Below, in pieces: positions 5,508 to 27,536 of a DNA stretch of 38,804 nt. Source of the stretch: Nanobdellati archaeon (GTDB taxonomy: Archaea > Nanobdellota > Nanobdellia > Woesearchaeales > GCA-2686295). Below the pieces are notes generated by a model that worked only from the letters and a program-made list of their open reading frames with translations, was not told the DNA's origin and searched no databases. The first letter of the stretch is position 1. The number at the start of each line of letters is the position of its first letter. Made by a program: the position numbers and the translations under genes. The stretch lies in contig JACNFY010000023.1 of NCBI GenBank assembly GCA_014384375.1, forward strand, positions 1-38,804, written 5' to 3'.

Positions 5508-5615
5508 AGCCTCTGCCGAGATTTGAACTCGGGACCTTTACCTTACCAAGGTAACGCTCTTTTCTGCTGCGCGTAAACCTTCGTTTGCACGAAGTACCAG
5601 CTGAGCTACAGAGGC
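5508..5615 (-). tRNA. tRNA-Thr(GGU) with a 35-nt insertion in the D-loop
   Basis: Acceptor GCCTCTG/CAGAGGC, D-stem GCTC/GAGC, anticodon arm TTACC-TTGGTAA-GGTAA, T-arm CCGAG-TTCAAAT-CTCGG, N73=T. Removing 5560-5594 (or the 1-nt shifted equivalent) gives a canonical cloverleaf. Confidence 0.88.
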
Positions 5616-10082: not shown

Positions 10083-10359
10083 AGGAGAGGTCACCCTTGT
10101 TCTAAGAGTGTTAGGAAATAATGAGACTTCACAGTTTGCTTTCAAAGATGCGACACTTCTTGATATTCTGAAGAATAAATACGAAGTGAAGTTGAAGAAA
10201 ATCTTTTATACAGAATACGTTGAATGTATTAATGAAGTATGCGCTAATGATGAGTACTCATGGCTATACTATGTCAATGATAAACCGATGAATCTAGGAG
10301 TGGACGTTTACAAGGTCAAAGATAGAGATGTGGTTCTGTTTGCTTACAGGAAGGTTTGA
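9994..10359 (+). CDS. DUF4430-domain putative lipoprotein
   Basis: Signal peptide ending LSLVSC; 'ATLLDILKNKYEVKLKKIFYTEYVECINEV...YSWLYYVNDKPMNLGVDVYKVKDRDVVLFAYRKV'. Overlaps the end of the upstream ORF. Confidence 0.65.
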   Translation: MKKDNLMKGLFVVSLLLSLSLVSCQEQSNEGEVTLVLRVLGNNETSQFAFKDATLLDILKNKYEVKLKKIFYTEYVECINEVCANDEYSWLYYVNDKPMNLGVDVYKVKDRDVVLFAYRKV

Positions 10360-10403: not shown

Positions 10404-10565
10404 CGCTGTAGCCGGGAATCGAACCCGGATGACCTGTGACAGTCAAATGCTTTCTGACCGCCCAACACTACATAGGGTGGTTTCAGGCATTTGCCACAAC
10501 AAAAAGCGAAGCTTTTTGGGTTCCAAAAATCTGTGATTTTTGTTATATCATTAGGCGACTACGAC
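10404..10565 (-). tRNA. Probable tRNA-Ser(GGA), type II, with insertions in the D-loop and anticodon loop
   Basis: T-arm CCGGG-TTCGATT-CCCGG, acceptor GTCGTAG/CTACAGC (one C-A mismatch, one G-U), N73=G, V-arm TGAC...GTCA, anticodon stem AATGC/GCATT. Removing 10455-10483 gives loop CTG+GAAA = CTGGAAA. D-stem GCC/GGC encloses ~57 nt with two hairpins. Confidence 0.6.
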
Positions 10566-10580
10566 AATTCTATTTTTTAG

Positions 10581-10692
10581 CGGCAGGGACGGGACTTCCA
10601 AGCCCAAGGAGCAATAAGCTTTTGAACCCATGAGACCCGTCAAGGTCACTCGATCATAAGTCGAGCGCAATGCCGAACTATGCGACCCTGCC
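10581..10692 (-). tRNA. tRNA with UAU anticodon, type-II-like variable arm and an insertion in the T-loop
   Basis: Acceptor GGCAGGG/CCCTGCC; D-arm GCAT-AGTTCGGCA-TTGC; anticodon arm CTCGA-CTTATGA-TCGAG; V-arm GACC/GGTC; T-stem ATGGG/CCCGT with TTCAA then ~26 extra nt in the T-loop; N73=G. Confidence 0.65.
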
Positions 10693-10737
10693 ATTGCTAA
10701 ACGTAAAATATTTAAAATACAGAACTTTATGCATATT

Positions 10738-10769
10738 ACCCGTCAAGGTTGCTGGGCTATGCGCCCTGC
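10738..10769 (-). pseudogene. Decayed fragment of the UAU tRNA
   Basis: Minus strand GCAGGGCGCATAGCCC...ACCTTGACGGGT matches the 5' arm and V-arm of the UAU tRNA with the anticodon arm missing. Confidence 0.5.
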
Positions 10770-10856
10770 ATTTCTTTTAAATTTTAGAACGAATGCTTCT
10801 TATTAAGCGCTATGCAGATATTTGTCCAGTGCAAAATTTTCTCGTCACGAAAATAT

Positions 10857-10872
10857 CCCGGATGACCTGTAG
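10857..10872 (-). pseudogene. Decayed fragment of tRNA-Ser
   Basis: Minus strand CTACAGGTCATCCGGG matches the tRNA-Ser segment CACAGGTCATCCGGG. Confidence 0.4.
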
Positions 10873-26444: not shown

Positions 26445-27536
26445 TTAGATATTCCTTTGTATAACAAAATCTGCTAATTCTAGGAAGAATCTCTCGTAAT
26501 CTTTTTTCAAACCAGCTTTTTTGAGCCAGTTCTTGCCTTGTTTTACTTTCCTCTCTGCAAGTTTTTTGCAGTACCCAACAGCTCCGCTAGTATGTAGGGC
26601 GTCTATAGCTTTTTTCATCTCTTTTCTGCCGGAATTTGCTTTTCCAAGCACTTTTAGTATTCTTCTCCTTTCTTTTCTATCACCTAATTCCAATGCTTTG
26701 ATGACTAGCAGTGTTCTCTTCCCTGCTTTTATATCCGAGCCAAGATCGTGACCTTTCTTCGATTCAGGATTGATATCCATGAAATCGTCTCGTATCTGGA
26801 AGGCAAGTGTTATGTTCATTGCACATTTTGCAAGCGCTTCTCTTTGCTTTTTGCTAGCTCCTGCTAAGACAGCGCCAATCTCGACTGAGGCTTTGACAAG
26901 GTATGCTGATTTCTTCTCAGCCATCTCGATGTAGTCTTCTTCTGAAGCATCATCTTTAGTGACTAACTCTATGTCCAGTAACTGTCCGTCATTCACAACA
27001 ATGAATGCTTCGTTGTATATCTTCTGGCATTCTCTCACTGCTTCTGATTTGAAATTTGAGTTGGTGATGCATTCCTCTCCAAATGAGAATAAGATGTTCC
27101 CCATAAGTATTGCTTTAGAAACAGCATCTCTTGATGACTCTCTGTTGAACAACGATCCTCTGTACCTCTTTTCCTTGTTATTCCTTAGGTATTCATCCTT
27201 GAAAGTTTTGTAAACTGTTGGCTTATTCCTCCTCAACTCATCCTCGTCCATGATATCATCTTCTACCAATGTGGAGTTGTGGAAGAGCTCGACTGACAAC
27301 GCTTCTCTAAGAATGTTTTTTCTGCCACCAAATCCTTTGTACGCGCAGATTAATGCCATTGGCCTTAATCTCTTGCCGCCATTAAGAACGAACCTTTCAA
27401 GGACATCGCAGTATTTTTTTATTAGGTAACTTAGATTTTTATCCTTCTTTTTCTCTGAGAAGAATCTTTTAATTTCAGAGTCTATCTGTTTTTTGTGTTT
27501 GGAAACAGTCGCTATAAACGAATTCTTTGATTCCAT
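26445..27536 (-). CDS. Trans-polyprenyl diphosphate (GGPP) synthase
   Basis: First Asp-rich motif 'LVEDDIMDEDELRRNKPT', second 'AFQIRDDFMDI'; 'GGKRLRP'. Confidence 0.93.
   Translation of the reverse strand: MESKNSFIATVSKHKKQIDSEIKRFFSEKKKDKNLSYLIKKYCDVLERFVLNGGKRLRPMALICAYKGFGGRKNILREALSVELFHNSTLVEDDIMDEDELRRNKPTVYKTFKDEYLRNNKEKRYRGSLFNRESSRDAVSKAILMGNILFSFGEECITNSNFKSEAVRECQKIYNEAFIVVNDGQLLDIELVTKDDASEEDYIEMAEKKSAYLVKASVEIGAVLAGASKKQREALAKCAMNITLAFQIRDDFMDINPESKKGHDLGSDIKAGKRTLLVIKALELGDRKERRRILKVLGKANSGRKEMKKAIDALHTSGAVGYCKKLAERKVKQGKNWLKKAGLKKDYERFFLELADFVIQRNI

Follow-up and report, generated by a model that had tools for sequence, protein, structure and literature searches.

Candida carries a single serine-type class II tRNA, tRNA-Ser(CAG), that reads the leucine codon CUG and is tied to codon reassignment. 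Bacterial allo-tRNAs likewise combine serine identity with non-serine anticodons, of which UAU is among the commonest; they are defined by an 8/4 or 9/3 acceptor/T-stem, their anticodons extend over 35 codons, and two of them inserted serine at Leu codons in Escherichia coli (PMC7609411). The nev-tRNAs of nematodes are leucine-charged tRNAs with a V-arm and anticodons unfit for that charging, Gly(CCC) and Ile(UAU), that occur alongside normal isoacceptors; the part of that report drawn on here mentions no introns (PMC4300185). In archaea, noncanonical bulge-helix-bulge (BHB) introns have been described in Thermoproteales, ARMAN, and N. equitans (PMC4033280), and work in H. volcanii showed that A73 specifies Leu, that G73 repels LeuRS, and that serine identity is independent of the anticodon (PMC9976931).

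Here we describe an interrupted class II, G73 tRNA gene in a 38,804-nt stretch of DNA (the window), which is contig C3 of the archaeal genome G000, a 1.27-Mb, 95%-complete metagenome-assembled genome (MAG) of Woesearchaeota type whose MetRS has Woesearchaeota and Nanoarchaeota MAGs as its closest named relatives. We consider it reasonably probable, from sequence comparison, that this gene is a partly degenerate member of an order-wide class II family with serine identity and NAN anticodons, which read NUN codons, that is matured by splicing. By analogy, allo-tRNAs appear to be the nearest functional parallel to the family, which differs from them in being archaeal, in its 7/5 acceptor/T-stem, in having anticodons of the NAN type only, and in being spliced from intron-bearing precursors. 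The family shares with nev-tRNAs a V-arm, ill-fitting anticodons including UAU, and accompanying normal isoacceptors, whereas nev-tRNAs are eukaryotic and leucine-charged. Several members have the anticodon CAG, as in Candida, but the family has many anticodons and no sign of reassignment.

Results

The 162-nt gene lies on the minus strand, with its 5' end at 10565 and G73 at 10404 (Table 1), between metG (plus strand, from 10936) and a small ORF, also on the plus strand, that ends at 10359. An earlier note had interpreted it as a multiply interrupted tRNA-Ser(GGA), and the anatomy given there was borne out on the minus strand: an intact T-arm (CCGGG-TTCGATT-CCCGG), V-arm (TGAC/GTCA), and anticodon stem (AATGC/GCATT, perfect, enclosing 36 nt), together with an acceptor (GTCGTAG/CTACAGC) containing one C-A mismatch and one U-G pair. 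The D-stem GCC/GGC encloses 58 nt, with hairpins CAAAAATC-ACA-GATTTTTG and CAAAAAGC-TTC-GCTTTTTG. The long variable arm and G73 are serine-type features, and they and the two interruptions proposed by the note are supported in a genome rich in tRNA introns at many positions. The gene was called neither by ARAGORN nor by Rfam at its gathering threshold, while a tRNA-Ser 3'-half model built from other genomes alone detected it at 19 bits. The BHB fold, the match to the serine model, and an ortholog in a congener confirm that this is a real tRNA gene rather than a chance resemblance.

Table 1. Features of the interrupted tRNA gene and its surroundings in the window
Feature	Position	Strand	Evidence or remark
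Class II, G73 tRNA-like gene	10404..10565	minus	Sequence, folds, splice-motif scan, G002 ortholog; predicted spliced anticodon GAA
Anticodon-loop intron, 29 nt, canonical 37/38 (predicted)	10452..10480	minus	Motif AATGC-CTGA-AA-CC ... GG-TCAG-AAA-GCATT
D-loop insert, 47 nt, inverted-repeat ends AACAAAAA/TTTTTGTT	10498..10544	minus	Absent from G002 ortholog
Two hairpins in D-loop insert	10524-10542 and 10500-10518	minus	Sequence, folds
Neighbouring odd tRNA, class II, G73, loop CTTATGA (anticodon UAU)	10581..10692	minus	R3 model, 93.8 bits
T-loop intron of neighbouring odd tRNA, 26 nt	10595..10620	minus	Mature T-loop TTCAAAT
Degenerate partial tRNA copy, repeats neighbour's V-arm ACCTTGACGGGT	10730..10770	minus	Direct repeat D2, 10635-10646 / 10738-10749
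Conserved upstream control region, boxes GTGACGAGAAAA and GCACTGGACA	10771..10871	minus	Alignment A4, R2 match 90 bits, repeat D1

The anticodon insert folds as a near-canonical BHB, with a core helix CTGA/TCAG between AATGC/GCATT and an inner helix (CC.CCC/GGG.GG). Its 3' bulge is AAA and its 5' bulge is AA, which extends to the canonical 3 nt if one C-G pair opens, so that the 4-bp core helix, 3-nt bulges, and canonical cut sites of archaeal BHB introns can all be recognized. A splice-motif scan returned one strong solution, in which each strand is cut 3' of its second bulge base (CTGAAA|A), which predicts a 37/38 junction, the loop CTGAAAA, and the anticodon GAA. The note had instead removed 29 nt (10455-10483) to obtain CTGGAAA, the Ser(GGA) loop, with a junction apparently at 34/35. 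Its arithmetic is right but not unique, since a 3-nt slide of the same removal gives CTGAAAA, and the 34/35 junction did not stand because those cuts would fall inside the 4-bp core helix, with 37/38 the only strong motif in the scan.

An ortholog in the congener G002 has G73 and an intact D-loop (GCC-TAACCTGGTTAT-GGC). It shares the CTGA/TCAG core helix and the AAA bulge with the window gene, again with GAA as the predicted anticodon at 37/38; Ser(GGA) identity is thus contradicted by the splice motif in both genomes. The ortholog's intron is longer and shares an ACCACCC/GGGTGGT hairpin with that of the window gene. Because an intact Ser(GGA) is encoded elsewhere in G002 (L175), the ortholog is not the Ser(GGA) isoacceptor. 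Among 147 genomes, the exact 3' splice-region pattern occurred in G000 and G002 only, other matches being mismatched in the manner of a reversed-pattern control, and this anticodon-intron type is known from those two copies. Following metG synteny in relatives did not lead to this tRNA.

The D-loop insert has a different character. Its removal leaves GCC-TAATGATATGT-GGC with an 11-nt loop, and no strong splice motif spanning it was found by the scan, only weak A/U-rich candidates; in controls, the scan located the D-loop introns of Ser(GGA) and Ser(CGA) exactly and proposed good candidates in two Arg tRNAs, while the D-loop introns of the Thr and Phe tRNAs escaped it. Left in place, the insert is predicted to pair with the T-arm. 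Its two-hairpin layout occurs at two other sites in the genome, one shortly downstream from Ser(GCU) and the other within the T-loop intron of a CCC-anticodon Gly tRNA, and its single hairpins recur near other tRNA loci. The insert therefore has the appearance of a repeat that arrived recently, not of an intron long in place. Position 19 has also changed from G to A, and the minimum-energy structure of the fully spliced RNA is not a cloverleaf. With the D-loop repeat, the lost G19, and the lost acceptor pair, the window copy looks partly decayed and is probably weak or dying.

Another serine tRNA for UCC and UCU, which the note had proposed to look for, is present: the UCY-reading Ser(GGA) of this genome is on contig C34 (~383-519), with D-loop and T-loop introns, a mature GCATAACCTGGTATTGCG and a TTGGAAA loop, and it scored 50 bits against the serine 3'-half model compared to 19 for the window gene. 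Ser(GGA), Ser(UGA), Ser(CGA), and Ser(GCU) are all encoded elsewhere in the genome, each interrupted by other introns. Excision of the predicted introns from Ser(GGA) and Ser(CGA) yields GCATAACCTGGTATTGCG, the D-arm of G002 Ser(UGA). D-loop introns also occur in Thr(GGU), Phe, Arg(UCU), and Arg(CCU), and T-loop introns in Gly(UCC), Ala(GGC), Pro, and Ser(UGA), while relatives carry uninterrupted mature forms. The single splicing endonuclease found in the genome (EndA, C23 58770-59030, L027) has both EndA domains, with its best matches among the enzymes of N. equitans and M. jannaschii. The splice motif, endonuclease family, and multi-intron tRNAs are those of the noncanonical systems reported previously (PMC4033280); what differs is the host, a Woesearchaeota-type genus, and the range of introns, which sit in the D-loop, the anticodon stem, and the T-loop and reach three per gene in Ser(CGA).

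Some individual loci illustrate this range. tRNA-Ser(CGA) (L235, G000 C1 ~26967-27200, minus) has introns in the D-loop, anticodon loop, and T-loop, and tRNA-Ser(GCU) (L014 715-860, G000 C18) has one that splits the anticodon stem on its 5' side (29/30) and is absent from the uninterrupted form in relatives (L168, L169). In the window, tRNA-Thr(GGU) (5508-5615, minus) has a ~32-nt D-loop insert; ARAGORN misses it and Rfam matches it partly. Two genes labelled as serine tRNAs by ARAGORN are something else: its "Ser(gga)" at C18 is an Arg(UCU) gene carrying a D-loop intron, and its "Ser(cga)" is the initiator Met gene. In regular tRNAs (L192, L024, L028, L212, L208), the long T-loop introns contain a related repeat, AACAACGRTTTCG...GAAAGTCC, that also lies beside tRNA genes, and its occurrence in both places suggests that tRNA introns may arise from a dispersed element.

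The window gene begins 15 nt downstream of a second odd tRNA on the same strand (Table 1). G000 encodes seven such tRNA-like genes, with a class II arm, G73, a short T-loop intron, and the anticodons UAU, GAU, CAG, GAC, or GAA; in a genome scan no other match fell between these seven, which scored 82 bits or more, and Ser(GGA) at 50 bits. A model of the seven matched 142 of 359 genomes of the order at E <= 1e-11, some matches being ordinary serine tRNAs. We examined 84 distinct sequences, of which 77, from 47 genomes sampled, have A35 and 7 have true serine anticodons; training on A35 genes biases the model toward A35, although that threshold also admitted true serine tRNAs that have T-loop introns and C35 or G35. 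The A35 anticodons were GAA (19), GAU (10), CAA (10), UAA (9), CAG (8), UAU (7), GAG (6), GAC (3), AAG (2), and CAC, AAC, and UAG (1 each), corresponding to NUN codons for Phe, Leu, Ile, and Val. G73 was present in all 83 complete copies, including all 76 complete A35 copies.

The A35 genes have diverged to a median pairwise identity of 0.59. In an alignment fitted to the model, which favours pairing, 99.2% of stem cells were paired and double-sided compensatory cells numbered 437, compared to 129 in shuffles. The T-loop splice helix, which lies outside the search model's own structure, was complete in 63/76 A35 genes and in 2.4% when shuffled, and a canonical cut there gives the normal T-loops TTCAAAT (58/76) or TTCGAAT (13/76). 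U33 was found in 71/76 and a purine at 37 in 75/76, and some members have Leu-like D-arms. The window gene has the class II arm, G73, and, given the predicted 37/38 cut, A35. It scores as a partial match only and has an anticodon-loop intron instead of the short intron at 59/60, its TTCGATT T-loop being intact; lacking that intron, it was classed as a related, divergent relative rather than a typical member. We found no description of the A35/G73 family in a literature search whose coverage mostly excluded subscription papers, and it has probably gone unnoticed. Viral contigs gave no matches to two narrow T-loop-intron patterns.

The control region upstream of the tandem pair is common to four other odd-tRNA loci of the genome. 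A region containing a TTTTC-ATGACGA-GAAAA box and CACTGGACA precedes five of the seven local odd loci and the G002 ortholog, in which the control region is directly upstream of the gene. The CACTGGAC region upstream of the window gene is shared with its tandem neighbour and was found upstream of 30/76 family genes (background 0.016 per 330 nt), often 129-147 nt from the 5' end. In many family genes a copy of the gene's own anticodon arm begins about 78 nt upstream, and permuted arms did as well in 0 of 1000 trials. In distant genomes, most weak matches to the control-region model were A/T-rich noise. We rejected a C/D-box RNA reading of the leader: the boxes are unfit, and the best Rfam match, snoR21 (E 2.9), is below its cut-off. 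Separately, a 14-nt stretch of the window gene's V-arm/T-stem (10424-10437) is repeated exactly in the control region (10857-10870; repeat D1).

Discussion

We propose that the splicing endonuclease would cut the window gene's precursor in the anticodon loop at 37/38, giving GAA for the Phe codons UUY, and that other family members would be spliced in the T-loop at 59/60. With introns at these sites, a member could adopt a normal T-arm or anticodon loop only after splicing. Since G73 repels LeuRS and serine identity is independent of the anticodon, at least in H. volcanii, the family would most likely be charged with serine. The anticodon plays no part in recognition by seryl-tRNA synthetase, and a mature family tRNA that reaches the ribosome would therefore insert serine where hydrophobic residues are encoded; this would most plausibly happen only while the common upstream control box is active. 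In the window copy, a dispersed two-hairpin repeat would have landed in the D-loop, with G19 and one acceptor pair lost. Codon reassignment was rejected, as the genome has normal Phe(GAA), Leu(GAG, UAA), and Val(UAC, CAC) tRNAs. As a partial alternative to selection, A35 may reflect descent from tRNA-Leu, which would leave A35 in place and fits the Leu-like D-arms of some members.

Of the other explanations, an ordinary multiply interrupted tRNA-Ser(GGA) spliced at 34/35 is very improbable. The class II arm, G73, the 29-nt removal that can yield CTGGAAA, and the many noncanonical introns of the genome agree with it, but its cuts lie within the core helix where the scan finds no such motif, a high-scoring Ser(GGA) exists at C34, and G002 has an intact Ser(GGA) in addition to the ortholog. 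A plain pseudogene, meaning the decayed copy of some tRNA gene, whatever its origin, with an inserted repeat and neither spliced nor used any longer, deserves more weight while still being unlikely. The insert without a strong splice motif, A19, the C-A mismatch, and the poor cloverleaf are what decay would leave; the gene is redundant for Ser and Phe codons, and its insert matches a repeat whose only two other genomic sites are both at tRNA genes. Against this, G002 shares the T-arm, anticodon stem, V-arm, and core splice motif, all of them intact, and the tandem pair is preceded by the control region. The earlier note had held that a normal Ser(GGA) elsewhere, with no transcription here, would make this locus a pseudogene; the Ser(GGA) is there, yet "pseudogene" is not the whole answer for a gene that groups with a conserved family.

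It is also conceivable, if rather doubtful, that the family is real and not for decoding, its members acting as serine-charged donors for a tRNA-dependent transferase or as decoys or regulators. A large load of serine-for-hydrophobic errors should be harmful, which makes a non-decoding role possible, and nematode nev-tRNAs mature normally, with no detectable mistranslation (PMC4300185). However, such roles give no reason for strict A35 beside diverse positions 34 and 36, and the prevalence of U33 and purine 37 also argues against them. Returning to serine-decoding tRNAs, a bolder version is speculative and more likely wrong than right: an order-wide set of switchable serine tRNAs for NUN codons, silent until spliced and sharing a control box that also precedes a methyltransferase locus, might make a deliberate swap of Phe, Leu, Ile, and Val to Ser under stress or attack.

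Should the family decode, serine-for-hydrophobic mistranslation would have an organised source in many genes of a large group of uncultured archaea, and the case would be far stronger than that of the known single odd tRNAs; if the family does not decode, a conserved set of tRNAs with a strict A35/G73 rule needs another job. The introns cause family genes to be missed by ARAGORN and to fall below the Rfam gathering cut-off, so the tRNA inventories of these archaea are incomplete and often misassigned.

A ~69-aa protein with no Pfam match lies behind the control region in several relatives (L237, L239, L240, L241, L245; downstream in L217). By our reading of the sequence, a similar control region precedes a ribbon-helix-helix/DNA-methyltransferase-like gene pair (L282, G000 C27:39742-39828, minus), and the C31 odd locus and its G006 counterpart are followed by apparently the same MGMT-like gene on the opposite strand. 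In genome G120 (L383, C38:400-4400), several A35/G73 tRNA genes are clustered in about 2 kb; for two of them, an exact or near-exact copy of the anticodon arm lies some 78 nt upstream.
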